A stretch of 64,000 bases of DNA from Phenylobacterium sp. Its GTDB lineage: Bacteria > Pseudomonadota > Alphaproteobacteria > Caulobacterales > Caulobacteraceae. The notes under the pieces were generated by a model. That model was not told the origin of the DNA, made no database searches, and saw only the letters and a program-made list of their open reading frames with translations. Of the stretch, positions 20,343 to 41,008 are shown in pieces. The DNA is taken from positions 51,867 through 115,866 of the forward strand of contig NZ_SCTC01000017.1 of assembly GCF_004299445.1 (NCBI RefSeq). Direction: 5' to 3'. The position numbers were made by a program, and so were the translations under genes. Numbering within the stretch: the first letter of the stretch is position 1; each line of letters starts with the position of its first letter.

Positions 20343-20491
20343 GGCGGGACATTGACCCGCTGCCCGCTGCAGCCTAATCCGCCGCCATCCCGCGTGACTG
20401 GCGACTAGAGGTGGGCGACCACCGGGGAGCGCGGCGACCATACTCCGCCGCGCGCCTGGGCATTTCTCTTGGAACTTCAGAGGAGAATGCC

Positions 20492-22084
20492 GTGCCCGCA
20501 GCCCCCGATTTCCCGCCCGCCCCCGACAAGGTCATCGTCCGCCGCGCCCTGCTGTCGGTCTCGGACAAGACCGGCCTGGTCGACGCCGCCAAGCAGCTCG
20601 CCGCCCTGGGCGTCGAACTGGTCTCCACCGGCGGCACCCGCAAGGCCATCGCCGACGCCGGCCTGCCGGTGAAGGACGTCTCCGACCTCACCGGCTTCCC
20701 CGAGATGATGGACGGGCGGGTGAAGACCCTGCACCCCATCGTCCACGGCGGCCTGCTGGGCGTGCGCGACGCGCCGGCCCACAAGCAGGCGATGGACGAG
20801 CACGGCATCGGCGCGATCGATCTGGTCTACGTGAACCTCTACCCGTTCGAGGCGACGGTGGCCGCGGGCGGCGACTACGCTGCCTGCGTCGAGAACATCG
20901 ACATCGGCGGCCCGGCGATGATCCGCTCAGCGGCCAAGAACCACGGCTACGTCGCCATCTGCACCGATCCGGCCGACATGGCCGAGGTGCTGGCCGAACT
21001 GGCGGAAGGCGGCGCCACCTCGCTGGCGCTCCGCAAGCGCCTCGCCGCCCGCGCCTATGGACGCACGGCCTCGTACGATTCCGCCATCTCGGCCTGGTTC
21101 GCCCAGCAGCTGGGCGAGACCGCGCCGGCCCGCAAGTCGATCGCCGGCGAGCTGGCTCAGACCATGCGCTATGGCGAGAACCCGCATCAGGCGGCCAGCT
21201 TCTACCGCTTCCCCAACCCGCGGATCGGCGTGGCCACGGCCACCCAGCTGCAGGGCAAGGAGCTCAGCTACAACAACATCAACGACACCGACGCCGCCTT
21301 CGAGCTGATCGCCGAGTTCGATCCCACCGCCGGCCCCGCCTGCGCCATCATCAAGCACGCCAACCCGTGCGGCGTGGCCACCGGCGCCTCGCTGCTGGAA
21401 GCCTACGAGCGGGCCCTGGCCTGCGACCCCACCAGCGCGTTCGGCGGCATCGTGGCGCTGAACAGCCGCCTCGATGCGGCCACCGCGGCCAAGGCGCTGG
21501 AGATCTTCACCGAGGTGGTGATCGCGCCGGAGGCTGACGAGGACGCCATCGCGCTGTTCCGCAAGAAGAAGAACGTGCGCCTTCTCGTCACCGGCGGCCT
21601 GCCCGACCCCATGGCCCCCGGCGAGACGTTCAAGTCGGTCTCGGGCGGCTTCCTGGTCCAGGGCCGCGACACGGCGCGCCTGACTGCGGCAGACCTCAAG
21701 GTGGTCACCAAGCGCGCGCCCACCGAGGCCGAGATCCGCGACATGCTGTTCGCCTTCACGATCGCCAAGCACGTGAAGTCGAACGCCATCGTCTACGCCC
21801 GCGACGGCCAGACCCTGGGCGTCGGCGCGGGCCAGATGAACCGCAAGGACTCGGCGCGGATCGCCGCGCTGCGGGCGGCGGACTTCGGGCTGGACCTGAA
21901 GGGCTCGGCCTGCGCGTCGGAAGCTTTCTTCCCGTTCCCGGACGGGCTGATCCAGGCGGCCGACGCCGGTTGCACGGCGGTGATCCAGCCAGGCGGCTCC
22001 ATCGGCGACGACAAGGTGATCGAGGCGGCGGACGAGCGCGGCATCGCCATGGTCTTCACCGGCGTTCGCGTCTTCCGCCACTAG
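20492..22084 (+). CDS. purH: Bifunctional AICAR formyltransferase / IMP cyclohydrolase
   Basis: Catalyses the last two steps of IMP synthesis. The 530-residue protein has the N-terminal MGS-like IMP cyclohydrolase domain ([42 protein letters not shown]). The C-terminal transformylase domain has [24 protein letters not shown] and SDAFFPF-like [14 protein letters not shown] 20492 is chosen because AGGAG lies about seven bases upstream; the frame is open to 20411 but without homology. A palindromic repeat follows 20 bases after the stop. Confidence 0.97.
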
Positions 22085-22871: not shown

Positions 22872-24281
22872 ATGCGCTACAAGCTATTTGTGGGGCCGAA
22901 GGTGCGGGCGCTGAGGGCGCGGCACGGGTGGCGGCTGGAGTCCTGCGCCCGCCGGCTCGGCATCTCGGTCAGCTATCTTTCGCAGATCGAGGCCAACCAG
23001 CGGCCCGTCACCGACCGTGTGCTGATGGGGCTGATCGAGACGTTCGGCGTTCCTGCGTCGACCTTCGAAGCGGATGACGACCAGCGCCTGATCGCCGACC
23101 TGCGCGAGGCGGTGGCCGACGTGGCCGGGGACGACCCGATCCCCCTGTCCGAGCTGCGCCAGGTGGCCCAGCAGTCGCCGGCCCTGGCCCGGCGCTTCCT
23201 GGACCTGCACCGCGCCAACCACCGTCTGGGCGAGCGCCTGAAGCTGACCGAAGAGGCCGTGTCGCTGGACGAGGCCACGGCCGCCAGCTCGCTCCTGCCC
23301 TACGAAGAGGTTCGCGACTTCTTCCACTTCAAGGACAACTACGTCGACAGCCTGGACCATGCGGCCGAGGACCTGGCCCAGGAGATCGGCCTCGACGCGT
23401 CCGGTTCGCCCGACATGCTGATGGAGATGTACCTGCGCGAGCGCCTGGGCGTGCGGGTGCGCTACGCGGCGCTGGGCGACGTGATGCGCCGCTACGACCC
23501 GGCCACCCATGAGCTGTGGATCAACGCCAGTCAGCCGGCGGCCACCCGGGCATTCCAGATGGCCTTCCACGTGACGGTGGCCAACCTGTCCGACCTTATC
23601 GAGCACGAGCTCGGCCAGGCGAGGTTCAAGAGCCGCGAGGCGGTGGATGTCTGTCGCGTGGGCCTGGGCAACTATGCGGCCGGCGCGCTTCTCACGCCCT
23701 ACCGCCGCTTTTCGGCTTCCGCGCGCGAGCTTCGCCACGACGTGGAGCAGCTGGCCGCGCTGTTCGGAGCCAGCCTCGAGCAGGTGTGCCACCGGCTGTC
23801 GACCCTGCAGCGACCCGGCCAGCGGGGCGTGCCGATGTACTTCGTGCGGCTGGACTATGCCGGCAACATCACCAAGCGCCACAGCGCCACCCGCTTCCGC
23901 TTCGCCCGCTTCGGGGGCGCATGCCCCTTGTGGAACGTCCACGACGCGGTGGCCTCCCCTGACCGGTTCCTGGTGCAGGTGGCGGCCATGCCCGACAACG
24001 TCCGCTACCTGTGCGTGGCGCGCGCGGTGGTGAAGCGGTCCGAAAGCTACCTGACGCCCGACCGCCGCTACGTCCTGGGCTTCGGCTGCGAGATCGAGCA
24101 CGCCCACGAGCTGGTCTATTCCGAAGGCCTGGACCTGAAGGGTCCGGCGGCCCCGATCGGGACCAGCTGCCGCATCTGCGAACGCGACAACTGCGCCCAG
24201 CGCGCCTTCCCGCCGGTGGACCGCCGCCTCAGCGTGCCGCAGCACGAACGCCGGACGGTGCCGTTCAGGCTGGGGCCCTGA
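22872..24281 (+). CDS. Short-chain acyl-CoA-type regulator (XRE HTH, ImmA/IrrE, DUF2083)
   Basis: A 469-residue regulator of the RamB/PccR/ScfR type, which control propionate, glyoxylate and methylcitrate genes. The XRE helix-turn-helix (about 8-65) includes LGISVSYLSQIEANQRP. The middle has an ImmA/IrrE-like region in which the usual HExxH is not intact (FQMAFHVTVANLSDLIEHEL). The C-terminal DUF2083-like domain ends with a Cys cluster GTSCRICERDNCAQRAFP. No target genes are adjacent. Convergent with coaE. Confidence 0.85.
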   Translation: MRYKLFVGPKVRALRARHGWRLESCARRLGISVSYLSQIEANQRPVTDRVLMGLIETFGVPASTFEADDDQRLIADLREAVADVAGDDPIPLSELRQVAQQSPALARRFLDLHRANHRLGERLKLTEEAVSLDEATAASSLLPYEEVRDFFHFKDNYVDSLDHAAEDLAQEIGLDASGSPDMLMEMYLRERLGVRVRYAALGDVMRRYDPATHELWINASQPAATRAFQMAFHVTVANLSDLIEHELGQARFKSREAVDVCRVGLGNYAAGALLTPYRRFSASARELRHDVEQLAALFGASLEQVCHRLSTLQRPGQRGVPMYFVRLDYAGNITKRHSATRFRFARFGGACPLWNVHDAVASPDRFLVQVAAMPDNVRYLCVARAVVKRSESYLTPDRRYVLGFGCEIEHAHELVYSEGLDLKGPAAPIGTSCRICERDNCAQRAFPPVDRRLSVPQHERRTVPFRLGP

Positions 24282-25733: not shown

Positions 25734-26320
25734 TCCGCCAGCTCCCCATGGCGGCGCAGCAGAGCCAGCAGGCCCATGAGCGGCAGCCCCAGGATGGCGA
25801 AGTAGTCACCCTCGATCTTCGAGAACAGTTGCGCGCCAGGACCCTCCAGACGGTAGCAGCCCACCGACCCCAGCGCGTGCTCCCCCTCCTGCGCCAGATA
25901 CTCCTCGAGGAAGGCGTCGGAGAAGTCGCGCATCGTCAGGCTGGCGGTGACGATCTCGCGCCAGATCGGCGCGCCCTCTTTGGCCACCACCACCGCCGAG
26001 TGCAGCTTGTGGGTCCGGCCGCGCAGCAACCTCAGGCGCTCGCGGGCCGCCTCCACGCTCTCGGCCTTGTCATAGAGCTGACCGTCCAGGTCCAGCGTCT
26101 GGTCCGAGCCGATCACGAAGTCGGGCCGCCCCGCGGACACCCGGATCGCCTTCAGCTCGGCCAGCGCATCGGCGATCTCGCGGGGGCCAGCGCCCTCGGC
26201 GAGGAGCGAGGTCTTCACCGCATCCTCGTCGACACCGGCCACGCGCGCCTCGTAGCGGACGCCAGCGCCGTCCAGCACCGCGCGCCGGGCCGCGCTCTTC
26301 GACGCCAGGATCAGGCTCAC
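25730..26320 (-). CDS. maf: Maf-like nucleoside-triphosphate pyrophosphatase
   Basis: A 196-residue Maf/YceF-type house-cleaning pyrophosphatase for modified nucleotides. It starts [21 protein letters not shown] (the SxSxRR-type motif) and has [17 protein letters not shown] with the conserved Asp. Another conserved run is [13 protein letters not shown]. It overlaps its neighbours by 4 bases on each side, within the operon left of the origin. Confidence 0.92.
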
Positions 26321-27171
26321 CCCAGCACCTCGACCTGGCCGTGCCCCTTGTGCAGCAGGTTCAAGACCGCAGCGGCCGTTTCCTCGACCGAGCGGCGGGT
26401 CACATCGATGGTGGGCCAGTTGTTGCGCTCGTACAGACGCCGCGCCGCGATGATCTCTTCCCGCACCGCTTCCTGCTCGGTGTAGCTGGTATCGCGGTTT
26501 TCTTTCAGGCTGAGCAGGCGGTTGCGCCGGATCTGGATCAGCCGGTCGGGCGAGATCAGCAGGCCCACGATCAGCGCGTTCTTAAGCGTCATCAGCTTTT
26601 CCGGCAGCGGCCGGCCCGGCACCAGCGGCACGTTCGCCGCCCGGATGCCCCGGTGCGCCAGGTAGATACAGGTCGGCGTCTTCGACGTCCGCGACACGCC
26701 CAGCAGCACCACGTCGGCCTGATCCAGATCCTGCCCGCCCTGGCCGTCGTCGTGGCCAATGGCGTAGTTCAGGGCGTCCATGCGGTTGAAGTAGTCGTTG
26801 TCCAGCCGCAGGTGCGCGCCCACCCGGGTGGTCGTGGCCGCCCCCAGGTAGCGCTGCATCGCCGCTACCAGCGGATCCAGGGCCGGCAAGCATGGCATGT
26901 CCATCCGCCGGCAGCCCTCCTCCAGCGCTGCACGCAGCTGGTCGTCCACAATGGTGTGCAGAACGATGCCCGGCGCCTCCTCGATGTCGCCCAGAGCCCG
27001 GTCCAGCTGTCGCTGCGAGCGGACGAGGGCGTAGATGTGCTCGATGGGCAGCACGTTCTCGAACCGGGCGCAGACGGCGCGCGCCATGGCGTTCAGCGTC
27101 TCACCGGTCGAGTCCGAGACCAGGTGGACATGGAAGTAGGTGGCGAGCCTGGGCGGTGCTGAGTTCGGCAA
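26317..27171 (-). CDS. ppsR: Pyruvate,water dikinase regulatory protein (DUF299 / RP001 type)
   Basis: A 284-residue bifunctional kinase/pyrophosphorylase family protein that regulates PEP synthase or PPDK by reversible phosphorylation. The start YFHVHLVSDSTGETLNAMARA and the P-loop LLGVSRTSKTPTCIYLA are diagnostic. It is the first gene of the ppsR-maf-aroE-coaE operon. In Caulobacter crescentus the homologue (RP001/DUF299) borders the origin opposite hemE, exactly as here. Confidence 0.93.
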   Translation of the reverse strand: MPNSAPPRLATYFHVHLVSDSTGETLNAMARAVCARFENVLPIEHIYALVRSQRQLDRALGDIEEAPGIVLHTIVDDQLRAALEEGCRRMDMPCLPALDPLVAAMQRYLGAATTTRVGAHLRLDNDYFNRMDALNYAIGHDDGQGGQDLDQADVVLLGVSRTSKTPTCIYLAHRGIRAANVPLVPGRPLPEKLMTLKNALIVGLLISPDRLIQIRRNRLLSLKENRDTSYTEQEAVREEIIAARRLYERNNWPTIDVTRRSVEETAAAVLNLLHKGHGQVEVLG

Positions 27172-27673
27172 GCGGACGGGCTCCGAAAATATCCTTGGGG
27201 ACGAAACCTGTGGACGTCTGTTTAGCGGCTGTGTCTCGCGATGGGGATAGAGAGCGCCGCGCCGGCCGTCGAGCGCGACGCAAAGGAAACACGAGGACAG
27301 TTCGTGGCGTTAACCTCTCATTAACCCCCAGCCTGATCCGCCGGGGCGCCGTTTCGCGGGCGCGCTCGGGGAATGCCGGGACATCGCCGGCGGCGCCCGG
27401 GACTGTTCCCGCCCCGGCCCGGCCAAAATCCAATGGCTTCAAGCCTGCAAGCTGTCTGTCCCCGGGACTCACAGGCCTTTCACACCCACGTCGCAAACCT
27501 GGGACGGCCTGTGGGCGAGCTGTTGGCCGTCAAGGGATTGTCAATCTTTTCCCCACTGTCGGCAGGCCTAACCTCTCCTGCTTCCATCCTTTCAAGATTC
27601 CTTTTGGTTAGAAGAGAAGAAGGTCTTCCCGGGCGGGCTTGAGCCTTGCGGGCCAAGGGGCTTTAAGGGGCCA
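27172..27673. other. Candidate chromosomal replication origin (Cori-like)
   Basis: This 502-base gap lies between divergent ppsR and hemE, the known position of the C. crescentus origin. It contains a perfect CtrA box (27310-27324). TCCCCA-type weak DnaA boxes lie at 27196-27201 (-), 27242-27247 (-) and 27550-27555 (+). A TCCACA half-box lies at 27209-27214 (-). GANTC methylation sites lie at 27466-27470 and 27596-27600. A comparatively AT-rich, pyrimidine-rich stretch runs about 27540-27630, just before hemE, and is a candidate unwinding region. I see no open frame that looks like a gene. The hemE promoter must also lie here. Confidence 0.82.
27310..27324 (+). promoter_or_regulatory. CtrA-binding box TTAA-N7-TTAA
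   Basis: TTAACCTCTCATTAA is an exact match to the CtrA consensus. In Caulobacter, CtrA bound at such boxes in the origin blocks initiation in swarmer cells and affects hemE transcription. The position within the ppsR-hemE gap makes the same role likely here. Confidence 0.85.
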
Positions 27674-28726
27674 ATGACGACCGAGACGCCCCGCCTCCTG
27701 CGCACCCTGGCCGGAGAGACCCTGGATCGCCCGCCGGTGTGGTTCATGCGCCAAGCCGGTCGGTCGCTGCCCGAGTACCGGGCGCTGCGGGCGACGACCA
27801 GCGACTTCATCTCGTTCTGCTTCGATCCCGAGAAGGCGGCCGAGGCGACGATGCAGCCCATGCGCCGCTTCCCGATGGACGCAGCCATCGTCTTCGCCGA
27901 CATCCTGCTGATCCCCCAGGCCCTGGGCCAGGAGGTCTGGTTCGAGGCCGGCGAAGGCCCCCGGCTGGGCCCGCTGCCCCGCATCGGCGATCTGCAGGAC
28001 GCCATCGACGGGTCTACCGCCAAGCTGTCCAACATCGGCGAGACCCTGAGCCGGGTCCGCGCCGAGTTGGAGCCCGACCGCGCCCTGATCGGGTTCGCCG
28101 GCGCCCCCTGGACCGTGGCCACCTACATGCTGGAGGGCCGCGGCTCCCAGCGCGAGGCCGCCCGCACCTACGCCTACCGTCACGCCGACGAGCTCGACGC
28201 CCTGCTGGATGTCCTGGTCGAGGCGACCGCCCGCTACCTCGTCATGCAGTCGAAATCCGGCGCCCAGGTGCTGAAGCTGTTCGAGAGCTGGGCTGACAAC
28301 CTGGCCGAGGACGTCTTCGAACGCATCGTGATCGGCCCGCACCGGCGCATCATCGAGAAGGTTCGCGCCGCCGGCGTCGACACGCCCTTCATTGGCTTCC
28401 CCCGCAGCGCCGGCGCCCTGGTGGAACGCTACGCCGCCGAGGTCCCCGTCCAGGCCGTCGCCCTCGACACCCAGGCCAGCGCCGCGCTGGGCCGCAGGAT
28501 CCAGGCCGGCGGCCAGGCGATCCAGGGCGCGCTCGACAATCTGCTGCTGCTCGCGGGCGGTCCGGCGCTAGACGCTCGGGTCGACACCCTGCTCGAGCAG
28601 TGGTCGGGCGGACCCTACATCTTCAACCTGGGCCACGGCGTCATGCCCGACACCCCCATCGAGCACATCGCCCGCGTCGTTGAGCGCGTGACGGGGAAGA
28701 AAGCCACAGCGATGGCCGCCGCGTGA
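27674..28726 (+). CDS. hemE: Uroporphyrinogen decarboxylase
   Basis: Converts uroporphyrinogen III to coproporphyrinogen III in heme synthesis. The 350-residue TIM barrel carries RPPVWFMRQAGRSLPEYRAL (substrate-binding Arg residues) and DAAIVFADILLIPQALG (conserved Asp). FNLGHGVMPDTPIEH lies at the C-terminus. AAGGGG precedes the ATG. Its stop overlaps hemH (GTGA), so hemE-hemH-hemJ form an operon that runs away from the origin. Confidence 0.97.
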   Translation: MTTETPRLLRTLAGETLDRPPVWFMRQAGRSLPEYRALRATTSDFISFCFDPEKAAEATMQPMRRFPMDAAIVFADILLIPQALGQEVWFEAGEGPRLGPLPRIGDLQDAIDGSTAKLSNIGETLSRVRAELEPDRALIGFAGAPWTVATYMLEGRGSQREAARTYAYRHADELDALLDVLVEATARYLVMQSKSGAQVLKLFESWADNLAEDVFERIVIGPHRRIIEKVRAAGVDTPFIGFPRSAGALVERYAAEVPVQAVALDTQASAALGRRIQAGGQAIQGALDNLLLLAGGPALDARVDTLLEQWSGGPYIFNLGHGVMPDTPIEHIARVVERVTGKKATAMAAA

Positions 28727-32931: not shown

Positions 32932-32947
32932 TGTTTCACGTGAAACA
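32932..32947. promoter_or_regulatory. parS: parS centromere site 1 (perfect 16-mer)
   Basis: TGTTTCACGTGAAACA is an exact match to the consensus chromosomal parS. It lies in the 298-base gap between the GST and quinone reductase genes, about 5.3 kb from the origin region and 7 kb from parB. Nearby in the same gap is an 8-base inverted repeat (CATACCGG 32884-32891 / CCGGTATG 32913-32920). Confidence 0.95.
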
Positions 32948-36479: not shown

Positions 36480-36626
36480 TTTCCCTCCCCCTTGTGGGGA
36501 GGGACAGGCCGCGCAGCGGCCAGGGTGGGGAAGTGGGGGCCGGAGTGCTGAGGTCGGGAAGGATCGTGACGTCCCCACCCTTCTCGGCTTCGCCTCGCCA
36601 CCCTCCCCATAAAGGGGAGGGAAATC
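36478..36626. repeat. Large GC-rich inverted repeat after mnmE
   Basis: The outer arms GATTTCCCTCCCC (36478-36490) and GGGGAGGGAAATC (36614-36626) are perfect inverted copies about 123 bases apart. Each arm is followed inward by its own small stem (CCCTCCCC..GGGGAGGG; GGCCGC-GCA-GCGGCC on the left side). The left arm overlaps the mnmE stop codon. It is related in style to the double-hairpin repeats nearby. Confidence 0.7.
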
Positions 36627-36634
36627 GCCCAGTT

Positions 36635-36677
36635 CCTCCCCCGCAGGGGGAGGGGGACCGCGAAGCGGTGGAGGGGG
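36635..36677. repeat. GC-rich double-hairpin repeat, copy 3
   Basis: CCTCCCCC-GCA-GGGGGAGG (36635-36653) is followed by ACCGC-GAA-GCGGT (36657-36669). It is the same element as 32983-33026, but the second stem has a G-C pair where the first copy has A-T, so pairing is kept. It lies 45 bases before parS site 2. Confidence 0.75.
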
Positions 36678-36722
36678 CCTCCGCTCCTACCGTGCCTGAC
36701 GCCCCGCCCACACACCCCCAAC

Positions 36723-36738
36723 TGTTTCACGTGAAACC
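36723..36738. promoter_or_regulatory. parS: parS centromere site 2 (15 of 16 bases)
   Basis: TGTTTCACGTGAAACC differs from the consensus parS only in the last base. It lies 18 bases upstream of the mnmG start and 3.4 kb from parB, inside the probable mnmG promoter. ParB binding could therefore also affect expression of the mnmG-rsmG-parA cluster. Confidence 0.9.
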
Positions 36739-36756
36739 GCGGGCCATTTCCCCTAT

Positions 36757-38619
36757 ATGCCGCCCACCATGACCACCTGGGACGTTATCGTCATCGGCGG
36801 CGGACACGCCGGATGTGAAGCCGCCGCGGCCTCGGCCCGGTTCGGCGCGCGCACCCTGCTGCTCACCCACAAGGTCGAGACCATCGGCGAGATGAGCTGC
36901 AACCCGGCCATCGGCGGCCTGGGCAAGGGCCACCTGGTCCGCGAGATCGACGCCCTCGACGGCGTCATGGGCCGCCTGGCCGACGTGTCCGGCATCCAGT
37001 TCCGCATGCTCAACCGCTCGAAGGGCGCCGCGGTGCGCGGACCGCGCAGCCAGATCGACCGCAGGCTCTACCGCGAGGCCATGCAGGCCGAGCTCGCCGC
37101 CACCGCGAACCTCACGATCAAGGCCGAGGCGGTCGAGGACCTCAACGTCGACAACGGCCGGGTCACCGGCGTCGTGGGCGCCAGCGGCGAGACCTATGCC
37201 GCCGGCCGCGTGGTCCTGACCACCGGCACCTTCCTGAAGGGCGTAATCCATCAGGGCGAGCTGCGCATCCCCGCCGGCCGCATCGGGGACGCCCCAGCCA
37301 TCGGCCTCTCCGACCGGCTCTACGCCCTGGGCGCCAGGATGGGCCGCCTCAAGACCGGCACACCGGCCCGCCTCGATGGCGCGACCATCGCCTGGGACCG
37401 CCTGGAGATGCAGGACGCCGACGCCGAGCCGATCCCGTTCTCGTTCCTGACCGACCGTATCATCGTCCCGCAGATCGCCTGCGGCATCACCTACACCACC
37501 GCCGAGACCCACCGGATCATCGCCGAGCGCCTGGGCGAGAGCGCCGTCTACGGCGGCCGCGCCACGGGTCGCGGCCCGCGCTACTGCCCGTCGATCGAGG
37601 ACAAGGTCGTCCGCTTCGCCGACAAGACCAGTCACCAGATCTTCCTCGAACCCGAGGGCCTCGATGACACGACGGTCTATCCGAACGGCATCTCCACCTC
37701 GGTCTCGGCCGAGACCCAGGACCTGTTCCTGCGCACAATCCCGGGGCTCGAGAACGTCCACGTGAAACGCCACGGCTACGCGATCGAGTACGACTACGTC
37801 GATCCGCGCGAGCTCTATCCGACGCTTGAGATCAAGCGCCTCGCCGGCCTCTACCTGGCCGGCCAGATCAACGGCACCACCGGCTACGAGGAGGCCGCGG
37901 CGCAGGGGCTGGTCGCCGGCCTCAACGCGGCCCGCGCGGCCTCGGGCGCCGAGCCGGCCCAGTTCGCCCGCGACGAAGCCTACATCGGCGTGCTCATCGA
38001 CGACCTCGTGACCCGAGGCGTCACCGAGCCCTATCGAATGTTCACCAGCCGCGCCGAGTTCCGCCTGACGCTGCGCGCCGACAACGCCGACCAGCGCCTG
38101 ACCGGCAAGGGCGTCGACCTCGGCGTGGTCGGCGCGAAACGCCGGGACGTGTGGCAAGTCAAACATGGTCAACTCGCCGAGGCCCGCGCCATGGCGCACG
38201 CGCTGACGCTTACGCCCGCCGCCGCCGCGAAGGCCGGCCTGCCGGTGAAGGCCGACGGGCAGCGCCGCAACGTGCTCGAACTGCTGGCCTACCCCACGAT
38301 CAGCTTCGACGACCTCGCCCGCATCTGGCCCCGGATCGGCGACTGGGCGTCGGCCGTGCGTGAGCAGATCGAGATCGACGCCTCGTATGCAGGCTACCTC
38401 GACCGCCAGGCCGCCGACGCCGAGGCCTTCCGCCGCGACGAAGACCTGCGTCTGCCGGCGAGCCTCGACTACGCCGCCATCGGTGGCCTCTCGAACGAAG
38501 TCCGGGAGAAGCTGGCCGCCGTCCGCCCGCTCACCCTGGGCCAGGCCGCCCGCATTGAGGGCGTGACCCCCGGCGCGCTCACGGCCCTGCTCGCCCATGT
38601 CCGCCGGCGCGCGGCCTGA
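36757..38619 (+). CDS. mnmG: tRNA uridine-5-carboxymethylaminomethyl modification enzyme MnmG
   Basis: FAD-dependent partner of MnmE in wobble uridine modification (formerly GidA). The 620-residue protein has the FAD motif [19 protein letters not shown] and the family signatures [26 protein letters not shown] and [38 protein letters not shown] lies further on. An ATG at 36769 (MTTWDV) is an alternative start. It leads the compact run mnmG-rsmG-parA-parB. Confidence 0.97.
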
Positions 38620-38621
38620 AG

Positions 38622-39251
38622 GTGGCGGTCACCGACGCGCAGAGCTTCGCGAAGGCGGCCAAGGCCACGCCCGAGCAGGTGGCCGACCTCGGCCGCTTCC
38701 TCGAGTTGCTGACGGCTGGCAACGAGGTCATGAACCTCGTCGGCCCCGCCACCATCCCCGACTTCTGGAACCGCCACGCCTGGGACTCGGCCCAGCTGCT
38801 GCGCCTCGCCCCCAACGCCCTGACCTGGGCCGACCTGGGCGCCGGCGCCGGCTTCCCCGGCCTGGTGCTGGCGATCCTCGGCAAGGGCAGGGACGGCGTG
38901 CACATCCACCTCGTCGAGAGCATGGCCAAGCGCTGCCGCTTCCTCGCTGATGTGGTCGCCGAACTCGATCTGCCCGCCACGGTCCACAACGAAAGGGCGG
39001 AGAACCTCTCGCTCACTGTGGACATCGTCACCGCGCGGGCTTGCGCGCCTCTTCACAGACTGTTGGGGTATGCCCGGCCATACTTGTTGGCGGGTGCGCA
39101 GGGCTTGTTCCTGAAGGGACAAGATGTAGTGGCTGACATGTCTGAGGCCGCAAGATATTGGGAGTATGAGGCGGACGTCATTCCGTCTCTCAGCGACGAG
39201 CGAGGTCGCATCGTGCGTGTGAGGAGGCTGGGGCGTGCCCGTAAAGTCTGA
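38622..39251 (+). CDS. rsmG: 16S rRNA m7G527 methyltransferase
   Basis: Methylates G527 of 16S rRNA (formerly GidB). The 209-residue SAM enzyme has NLVGPATIPDFWNRHAWDSAQLL, the SAM motif WADLGAGAGFPGLVLAI and VESMAKRCRFL. The GTG start lies 2 bases after the mnmG stop. The 3' part (39051-39190) is about 56% GC by my count, well below the surroundings, and uses codons rare nearby such as GTA and ATA. It overlaps the parA start by 17 bases. Confidence 0.94.
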   Translation: MAVTDAQSFAKAAKATPEQVADLGRFLELLTAGNEVMNLVGPATIPDFWNRHAWDSAQLLRLAPNALTWADLGAGAGFPGLVLAILGKGRDGVHIHLVESMAKRCRFLADVVAELDLPATVHNERAENLSLTVDIVTARACAPLHRLLGYARPYLLAGAQGLFLKGQDVVADMSEAARYWEYEADVIPSLSDERGRIVRVRRLGRARKV

Positions 39252-40062
39252 CCGCGGACTACGCGTGCTCGTCGTCGCCAACCAGAAGGGCGGGGTCGGC
39301 AAGACGACGACCGCCATCAACCTGGGCACCGCGCTGGCGGCGGTCGGCGAGAAGGTGCTGCTGATCGACTCCGATCCGCAGGGCAATGCCTCCACCGGCC
39401 TGGGCGTCGGCCGGGCCCTGCGCAAGAACACCCTGTACGACGTCCTCATGGGCGAGAAGCCGCTGCTGGACGCGGTGGTGAAGACGTCGGTGCCAGGCCT
39501 CGATCTGACGCCGTCCGACCCCGACCTCTCGGGCGTGGAACTCGAGCTGGGCCAACAGGCCCGCCGATCGTTCAAGCTGCGCGATGCGCTGAGCCCCCTG
39601 CGGGACGCCCGCAGCTATACGTACGTCCTCATCGACTGCCCGCCGTCGCTGAACCTGCTCACCGTCAACGCCATGGCCGCGGCCGATGCGGTGCTGGTGC
39701 CGCTGCAGTGCGAGTTCTTCGCCCTGGAAGGTCTCAGCCAGCTCATGCGCACCATCGACCTGGTGCGCGGCAGCCTGAACCCGGCGCTGGAGCTGCAGGG
39801 CGTGGTGCTGACCATGTACGATCGCCGCAACGCCCTGTCGGGCCAGGTGGCCACTGATGTGCGCGGCCATTTCGGCGAGGCCGTCTACGAGACAGTGATC
39901 CCCCGCAACGTCCGCGTCTCCGAGGCGCCGTCGTTCGGCAAGCCGGCCCTGGTCTACGATCTGAAGTGCGCGGGCAGTCAGGCCTACCTGAAGCTGGCCC
40001 GCGAGGTGGTGCTGCGCGAACGCAAACGCCGCGCCTCAACGCCCGAAGGGGCGTTGCTATGA
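39235..40062 (+). CDS. parA: Chromosome partitioning ATPase ParA
   Basis: A Walker-type ATPase that moves ParB-parS complexes to the opposite pole. The 275-residue protein has the deviant Walker A KGGVGKTTTAINLG, Walker A' LLIDSDPQGNASTGLG and Walker B YVLIDCPPSLNLL. The GTG start has GAGGAG eight bases upstream, inside the end of rsmG. No N-terminal HTH is present, so this is the chromosomal Soj-type form. Confidence 0.97.
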   Translation: MPVKSDRGLRVLVVANQKGGVGKTTTAINLGTALAAVGEKVLLIDSDPQGNASTGLGVGRALRKNTLYDVLMGEKPLLDAVVKTSVPGLDLTPSDPDLSGVELELGQQARRSFKLRDALSPLRDARSYTYVLIDCPPSLNLLTVNAMAAADAVLVPLQCEFFALEGLSQLMRTIDLVRGSLNPALELQGVVLTMYDRRNALSGQVATDVRGHFGEAVYETVIPRNVRVSEAPSFGKPALVYDLKCAGSQAYLKLAREVVLRERKRRASTPEGALL

Positions 40063-40138: not shown

Positions 40139-41008
40139 ATGGCGGAGAACCGCAGAGGACTCGGGCGCGGCCTGTCGGCGCTCCTGGGCGAGGCCGAAGA
40201 GATCACCCATGCGGGCGATCCGGCGACGGGCGTGCGCGAGATCCCGATCGAGCTGATCCATGCCAACCCCGACCAGCCGCGCCGCAATTTCGCCGAAGCG
40301 GAATTGGCCGAGCTGGCCGAGTCGATCCGCGACAAGGGCGTGCTCCAGCCGGTGCTGCTGCGCCCATCGCGCCGCGAGGGCGAGTACGAGATCGTGGCCG
40401 GCGAGCGCCGCTGGCGCGCCTCGCAACTGGCGGGGCTCAAGGCGCTGCCGGCGCTGGTGCGCGAACTTGAAGACGCCGAGGCGTTCGAGATCGCGATCAT
40501 CGAGAATGTCCAGCGCGAGGATCTGAACGCCATCGAAGAGGCGCGCGCCTACGCCTCGCTGATGAACGTGATGAAGATCACCCAGGACGAGGCGGCCAAG
40601 CGAGTCGGCAAGTCGCGCAGTCACGTCGCCAACACGATGCGCCTGACCCAGCTGCCCGAGAGCGTTCAGGAGCACCTGATTGCGGGACGGCTGACCGCTG
40701 GCCACGCCCGCGCGCTGCTGTCGACCGACGACGCCGGCGCCTTGGCTGACCGGGTCGTGTCCGAGGGCCTGTCGGTTCGCGAGACCGAAGCTCTGGCCCG
40801 CGACAATCCCGGAAAGCCATCGAAGAAGGCGTCCGGTCCGCGGAGGCCGCCCAAGGATGCGGACACCGCGGCGCTGGAAGGCGATCTCGAGGAGGCGCTC
40901 GGAATGGGCGTCGAGGTTGTCGATCGCGGCGGCGTCGGCGAGGTGAAGATCAAGTACGCCACGCTGGAGCAGCTGGATGAGATCTGCCGGCGCCTGACCC
41001 GCCTGTGA
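40139..41008 (+). CDS. parB: Chromosome partitioning protein ParB
   Basis: A CTP-dependent DNA clamp that loads at parS. The 289-residue protein starts GLGRGLSALLGE (the N-terminal ParA-activating segment) and has PDQPRRNF. The CTP-binding motif GERRWRA and ENVQREDLN are present. The HTH reads MKITQDEAAKRVGKSRSHVANTMRL, and the C-terminal dimerisation domain ends LDEICRRLTRL. A 76-base gap separates it from parA. The two parS sites above are its likely targets. Confidence 0.97.
   Translation: MAENRRGLGRGLSALLGEAEEITHAGDPATGVREIPIELIHANPDQPRRNFAEAELAELAESIRDKGVLQPVLLRPSRREGEYEIVAGERRWRASQLAGLKALPALVRELEDAEAFEIAIIENVQREDLNAIEEARAYASLMNVMKITQDEAAKRVGKSRSHVANTMRLTQLPESVQEHLIAGRLTAGHARALLSTDDAGALADRVVSEGLSVRETEALARDNPGKPSKKASGPRRPPKDADTAALEGDLEEALGMGVEVVDRGGVGEVKIKYATLEQLDEICRRLTRL

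Follow-up and report, generated by a model that had tools for sequence, protein, structure and literature searches.

In Caulobacter, the textbook connection of cell fate to DNA replication is the silencing of the replication origin by CtrA. The present work concerns a 64-kb stretch of a Phenylobacterium sp. genome (hereafter, the window), which is the final part of a 116-kb contig (C57) of a draft genome (4.9 Mb, 95 contigs), and more precisely the gap between its ppsR and hemE genes, where an initial annotation had proposed a probable chromosomal origin. The origin of C. crescentus, Cori, lies between hemE and a COG1806/ppsR gene (PMC1914354). Its DnaA protein binds two moderate G-boxes and five weak W-boxes, and its CtrA protein, which binds TTAAN7TTAA, excludes DnaA (PMC4468827, PMC4285127). 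The predicted origins of Rickettsia and Wolbachia, compared here by their published description, are also flanked by hemE and include DnaA and CtrA sites, but the second flank differs in Wolbachia, and both genera have AT-rich genomes and different sites (PMC1914354). Closer to the window, a figure legend gives base 1 of the P. zucineum HLK1 chromosome as its putative origin (PMC2529317). Our comparison of sequences indicates that the gap is likely the origin of its chromosome, of the Cori kind, where CtrA would block DnaA from one box only; this box was probably acquired within Phenylobacterium, and an older one at a central place was probably lost.

A Cori-like gap between ppsR and hemE

The two divergent genes and the gap that separates them are the following.

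27172 to 27673, no strand: predicted chromosomal replication origin, ppsR-hemE gap (502 bp)
26317 to 27171, minus strand: ppsR (Kinase-PPPase, DUF299/COG1806; PF03618, E 3.7e-91)
27674 to 28726, plus strand: hemE (URO-D; PF01208, E 1.4e-99)

These domain matches bear out the proposal that the flanking genes are those of the C. crescentus origin. For comparison, 110 loci (L003-L112) were gathered in addition to the window, and two of them devoid of hemE (L100 and L109) were excluded. The resulting 109 gaps correspond to 83 distinct ones, of which 74 were aligned; these are called Phenylobacterium because of a ppsR identity of at least 75.8% and not from the taxonomy of each. Nine gaps below this threshold (L102-L108, L110 and L111) were used for comparison only and, like L197, stand outside the 74-row alignment. 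A genus name was available for 50 of the 80 relatives found through ppsR (48 Phenylobacterium and two Caulobacter). Twenty gaps were also fetched from the family, two of which (L199 and L203) gave no ppsR match, and the genus coded g21 (11 gaps) was taken as Caulobacter. The alignment across relatives suggested by the initial annotation showed that both the length and the motif positions are conserved in the 74 gaps, 69 of them measuring 480-540 bp. Conserved columns amount to 66 of 502 in the gap and to 215 of 700 in a control downstream of hemH, which was dropped as apparently coding. The DnaA-type boxes and the AT-rich tract of the window are listed below.

27196 to 27201, minus strand: W1, weak DnaA box TCCCCA (kept in 69/74 gaps)
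27209 to 27214, minus strand: TCCACA half-box adjoining W1 (TGTGGA or GTCGA in 58/74)
27242 to 27247, minus strand: W2, weak DnaA box TCCCCA (kept in 69/74)
27459 to 27475, plus strand: W3/G-like DnaA block TCCCCGGGACTCACAGG (TCCCC in 57/74, T[CT]CACA in 53/74)
27510 to 27515, minus strand: place of W4, degraded to TGTGGG in the window (TGGGGA in 41/74, window not included)
27547 to 27555, plus strand: W5, DnaA box TTTTCCCCA (TT.TCC[AC]C in 59/74, TCC[AC]C in 69/74)
27579 to 27624, no strand: AT-rich tract, predicted unwinding element (65% AT over 40 bp from 27582)

The three weak TCCCCA boxes described initially are present at 27196, 27242 and, on the plus strand inside W5, 27550-27555, and their number exceeds chance (0.44 expected; three reached in 14 of 2000 shuffles of the gap). 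Over the 74 gaps, TCCCCA reaches a mean of 3.03 versus 0.48 in shuffles. The TCCACA half-box was also correctly located, but by itself it is within chance in the window gap (233 of 2000 shuffles); the mean of 1.20 versus 0.13 in shuffles indicates that TCCACA is enriched across the 74-gap group. The block at 27459-27475, overlooked by the initial annotation, is conserved as TCCCCG..ACTCACAGG. In the window, it has TCCCC and, at the place of the second form, ACTCACA, so that it was scored as devoid of T[CT]CACA in this span. The two stronger G-boxes of Cori, TGATCCACA, are absent from the window gap, which has the weaker ACTCACAGG block instead, and the pattern T[GT]AT[CT]CACA matches neither the window gap nor any of the other 73. 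The G-boxes TGATCCACA mark C. crescentus itself rather than all origins of the Cori kind. The AT-richer tract reported beside hemE was recovered: its best 40-bp stretch, from 27582, compares with 37% AT for the window gap, and the mean AT content of the 74 gaps peaks at the same place (62% over 40 bp from 27574). The GANTC (CcrM) sites were rejected as an origin feature: two are indeed present (27466 and 27596), but 1.7 are expected and 1086 of 2000 shuffles have as many, and the mean over the 74 gaps is 2.58 versus 2.05 in shuffled sequences.

Within the 116 kb of C57, no stretch other than the gap combines two or more TCCCCA with a perfect CtrA box, and the same holds for the gap of the genome coded G036 within its positions 1-274 kb. 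Partition genes stand nearby.

32932 to 32947, plus strand: parS, exact
36723 to 36738, plus strand: parS, one mismatch
39235 to 40062, plus strand: parA-like ATPase (ParA/MinD-type NCBIfam matches, none of the 25 shown being over cut-off)
40139 to 41008, plus strand: parB (TIGR00180, 202.7 bits, over cut-off)

These positions agree with the earlier statement that parS and parAB lie 5-13 kb from the gap. The two parS are the only ones of the whole assembly at up to one mismatch, and in seven of seven genomes a parS (same threshold) is found at 4-10 kb from the hemE start. Furthermore, in the 3,996,255-bp chromosome that we take as that of P. zucineum HLK1 (G093:C2), the ppsR-hemE gap begins at 3,995,748, passes over the end of the record and finishes at base 15. 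Compared to the window, this putative origin (PMC2529317) occupies the same gap and has the same W1, W2 and W3/G layout and a CtrA site I at 7/8, but it keeps W4 as well as a site II at 8/8 (both CtrA sites are described below). Taken as a whole, the gene context, length, motif positions, AT-rich tract, parS/parAB and this choice of base 1 support the initial proposal of an origin between ppsR and hemE. The likeness to Cori extends to the hemE and ppsR (COG1806) flanks, weak DnaA boxes, a CtrA box, an AT-rich tract and neighboring parS and parAB.

It should be mentioned that the mnmE-mnmG junction (~36485-36987) carries four TCCCCA within 502 bp, around the parS at 36723, and no CtrA box; this stretch has as many motif matches as the origin gap.

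Probable turnover of the CtrA sites

Whereas five CtrA boxes have been published for Cori (PMC8959179), only one is found in the window gap. The places considered are the following.

27310 to 27324, plus strand: CtrA site I, TTAACCTCTCATTAA, perfect match to TTAAN7TTAA
27321 to 27330, plus strand: TTAACCCCCA, weak DnaA-box-like sequence (putative DnaA site), overlapped by the right half of site I
27419 to 27433, plus strand: erased CtrA site II, now CCGGCCAAAATCCAA (at least 7/8 core bases in 55/74 gaps)

Site I, reported initially as a perfect box, is the sole perfect TTAAN7TTAA of the 64-kb window. Such a box arises by chance in one of 100 whole-window shuffles and in three of 2000 gap shuffles; the whole assembly has 12 perfect boxes versus four matches to a reversed control pattern, and the 74 gaps average 1.08 versus 0.0 in shuffles. 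Site I (at least 7/8 core bases) is found in 32 of the 74 gaps, all in one clade, and stands in the window 364 bp from hemE. At the place of 27321-27330, TCC[AC]C, CCCCCA or CC[CA]ACA is found in 23 of the 35 gaps with at least 6/8 of site I and in 26 of the 39 gaps with less; the latter figure suggests that site I may have overgrown an existing weak DnaA box.

The statement that only one full CtrA box is visible was right, with the addition that a box kept by most relatives has likely been lost. The suggestion that control could use half-sites found no support: besides the halves of the box, the window gap has a single TTAA, at 27663, which sits in a hemE promoter-like element, and hidden control through TTAA half-sites was rejected. 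When boxes with at least 7/8 are counted anywhere in the gap, the 74 gaps divide into three without a box, 15 (including the window) with one, 44 with two and 12 with three; the 11 g21 gaps carry two to six.

The lost box, overlooked initially, would be site II, which resembles TTAACGAAACCTTAA in the majority of the 74 gaps; at its place in the window, no 15-mer within 25 bp exceeds 4/8 core bases. At the threshold of 7/8, 28 gaps have both sites, 27 site II only, four site I only (the window, L012, L013 and L018) and 15 neither, "neither" meaning absence at the two aligned places, since some of these 15 gaps hold boxes elsewhere. Site II is kept, for instance, in P. kunshanense (L009/L033) at 7/8 and in P. 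deserti (L112) at 8/8. The spacing from W2 to site II has a median of 175 bp (10-90%: 169-178) in 50 measurable Phenylobacterium gaps. Among the g21 gaps, a box lies 178-182 bp from W2 in eight of the nine that could be measured (10 of the 11 were tried) and 258-290 bp from hemE in nine of 11, compared to 255 bp for the erased place of the window. Because of these matching spacings, site II appears to represent the central box of the family, shared by most Phenylobacterium relatives with Caulobacter gaps but missing from the window. Conversely, no box was found at the site I spacing in the nine g21 gaps that could be measured, so that the box of the window occupies a place that they do not use; by distance to hemE, a box of the g21 gap L208 is 18 bp off.

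In a hemE + ppsR tree (78 rows, quick search, with the SH-like approximate likelihood ratio test as only support and 26 of 75 inner branches below 80), site I (at least 7/8) is confined to one clade (support 95 for 38 rows and 94 for 37 rows), whereas site II is spread across both halves. The fewest changes needed are six for site I and seven for site II. The window belongs to a starred set of seven (support 97), whose six other members all have site I at 8/8 and site II at 7/8. By parsimony, which is not proof, site I was probably gained in the ancestor of that clade and site II was probably lost separately later, once in the lineage of the window. CtrA control of the origin would thus probably have passed from the old site to a newer one.

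The regulator itself is well conserved. The CtrA of the genome carrying the window is 94% identical over 226 residues to a C. crescentus CtrA query sequence, and in the 14 relatives searched the best match to it is 94-100% identical; GcrA is present in 10 of 10 genomes searched. As CtrA is nearly unchanged, the change seems to lie in the origin and not in the regulator. Nine genomes that form a clade (L086, L089, L091, L092, L095, L097, L098, L099 and L101; drafts of 2.3-2.9 Mb) lack both aligned CtrA sites, and the surroundings of the site II position are AT-rich in them. All nine, which are among the 14 searched, keep CtrA at 94-95% identity as well as fliF, and three of their gaps (L089, L095 and L098) have no CtrA box even at one mismatch in spite of the presence of CtrA and fliF. 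The idea that loss of CtrA boxes goes with loss of the dimorphic life cycle (raised by PMC12700997) was considered and rejected, since fliF is kept in nine of nine. The fliF search covered the genomes of 46 of the 74 rows; the gene is missing in two of them (G303 and G304), whose gaps (L066 and L065) keep site II.

We also consider, as a tentative possibility, that the hand-over was complete in the window: the box of the newer clade, beside another weak DnaA box, would have taken over, the central box, possibly with a CtrA-driven RNA, would have been erased, and the nine-genome clade would have lost cis control by CtrA although CtrA and fliF remain. According to a review citing Shaheen 2009, four of the five CtrA sites are conserved in freshwater Caulobacter and marine Caulobacter probably evolved the use of CtrA independently (PMC4468827); following this account, turnover of CtrA sites at origins is already known in principle. 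Judged by titles and abstract openings, none of the literature found on Phenylobacterium with CtrA and replication origin reports its origin sites. What is new here is the comparison of CtrA sites across gaps.

Proposed mechanism and its implications

By analogy with Cori, DnaA would bind W1, W2, the W3/G block and W5 together and open the AT-rich tract at 27579-27624 beside hemE. Phosphorylated CtrA on site I would cover the DnaA-box-like sequence at 27321-27330, giving exclusion at a new place, and would hold replication off until its removal. ParB on parS would then move the copied origin.

The locus is likely a genuine origin, its kind being already known, and the history of its CtrA sites is unusual and testable. 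Phenylobacterium offers a natural series of origins that have, at the two aligned places, the old site alone, the new one alone, both or neither, with nearly the same CtrA protein in the genomes checked. This series allows tests of the number of CtrA boxes required by an origin, of the positions that they must occupy relative to DnaA boxes and of whether an origin RNA depends on them. If a complete hand-over were true, the dimorphic cell cycle would tolerate rewiring of a core origin switch within one genus.

Strand bias and alternative explanations

Skew alone would not place the origin. The GC-skew check proposed by the initial annotation gave agreement in one genome (G036), a weak signal in two (G093 and G015) and another location in a fourth (G022). 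For G036, assembled as one contig of 4.29 Mb, 62% of the GC-skew variance is accounted for by a two-replichore fit with a switch 38-138 kb from hemE, and still 59% when the origin is forced within 20 kb of hemE. In a 391-kb profile of this genome, where dnaA is at 0 kb and the gap at 82 kb, every 10-kb GC-skew bin from 3 to 93 kb is negative, followed by mixed values to 160 kb and mostly positive ones beyond. On C57, the cumulative GC minimum is at 90.9 kb, ~11 kb from the gap (in an assembly of 95 contigs). With a strand-bias octamer (GGGCAGGG), the terminus-side switch lies at 1.28-1.40 Mb in G015, 1.94-2.08 Mb in G022, 2.02-2.20 Mb in G093 and 2.38-2.46 Mb in G036. The points opposite hemE, obtained by arithmetic, are 1.33, 1.97, 2.00 and 2.23 Mb, respectively, so that the switch is within ~0.25 Mb of the opposite point in four of the four sampled genomes.

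Several observations weigh against an origin of the kind proposed here. On the side of strand bias, the cumulative GC minimum of G036 (138.9 kb) falls at a distance of 57 kb from the gap; with the origin forced at hemE, the GC-skew R2 is 0.27 in G093 and 0.02 in G015; the best GC-skew switch of G022 is 662-782 kb from hemE (0.27 when forced); and the origin-side switch is 58-1776 kb (AT skew) or 122-576 kb (octamer) from hemE. The window comes from one draft assembly, and three other stretches of C57 have as many matches on motif count alone. Its W4 and G-like box are weaker than in many relatives. Compared with Cori, no IHF consensus was found in the window gap, but the two forms searched matched only one of 10 and none of 10 g21 gaps, respectively. 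A single CtrA box is not rare, since 18 of the 74 gaps have at most one (up to one mismatch). Because of the box of L208, 382 bp from hemE, site I may also be older or may have arisen independently. Lastly, the dnaA locus of G036 (L220) has three TCCCCA within 500 bp.

In G022, assembled as one contig (L153-L172), parS is also found at ~0.89, 0.99, 2.70, 3.43 and 3.45 Mb, far from hemE. These distant parS and the GC-skew switch of this genome could reflect a rearrangement or an assembly error.

The gap also holds two promoter-like elements, the second of which was overlooked initially.

27220 to 27230, minus strand: candidate ppsR promoter -10-like element, consensus TCTTAGCGAAG on the plus strand (conserved block)
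27639 to 27666, plus strand: candidate hemE promoter-like pair TTGAG..TTTAA (TTGAG in 73/74 gaps, TTTAA in 71/74)

The first one, which resembles the Caulobacter -10, has its strict form in 61 of the 74 gaps but not in the window. The gap could thus be a mere divergent promoter region for ppsR and hemE, with the CtrA box as a promoter site and the origin elsewhere, which would fit the hemE elements being the best-conserved blocks and the skew of G022 pointing elsewhere. We consider this very improbable, as W1, W2, W3, W5 and a length of ~500 bp are conserved past the needs of promoters, site I is upstream of the ppsR -10-like element at a distance of ~80 bp and is separated from hemE by about 350 bp, parS is nearby and a complete Phenylobacterium chromosome begins in the gap. 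A location beside dnaA, as in many other bacteria, appears equally far from likely. The dnaA gene is on another contig than hemE in the assembly of the window, and in the six genomes having both on one contig it lies ~70-115 kb from hemE, that is, inside the coarse resolution of the skew; the three TCCCCA of the G036 dnaA locus also speak for this location. However, the skew of G036 is negative from dnaA through hemE, parS clusters by hemE and not by dnaA, and no perfect CtrA box is present in seven dnaA loci, six of which (all except that of G036) have zero or one TCCCCA; these loci are partial, dnaA starting less than 200 bases from the first base of the record in G036, G048 and G015, with the upstream part unseen.

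The gap could also be a true origin that escapes CtrA, site I being a leftover or serving another purpose and timing depending on DnaA alone. In its favor, nine relatives have an intact CtrA and neither aligned site, and a review describes the laboratory cycle of C. crescentus as only mildly perturbed by lowered CtrA affinity at all five Cori sites (PMC4468827). It is nevertheless unlikely in our view, since the window and its six clade mates all have a perfect site I, as expected if it is still selected. A further proposal adds to CtrA control through site I rather than opposing it, namely that losing site II has its main effect on an RNA like CcnA, the window having lost a CtrA-driven RNA. 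The position of site II matches that of the central Caulobacter box, and C. crescentus has, within its origin, an RNA that is driven by a CtrA box. Nevertheless, site II corresponds to the ccnA box by position and inference only, and no conserved fold was found by consensus folding of 27449-27634, where the alignment is poor (no structure with 74 rows, about -0.1 with 35 rows); we hold this addition to be rather doubtful.

Other features of the window

The gene order continues with maf, aroE and coaE beyond ppsR, and with hemH, rho, mnmE, mnmG, rsmG, parA, parB and holA beyond hemE. An ScfR-type regulator with HTH and IrrE/M78 peptidase domains is encoded near the origin region (22872-24281). 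A ZMP/ZTP riboswitch (Rfam RF01750, 56 bits) was detected at 20384-20468, at the start of a purH frame (20411-22084).
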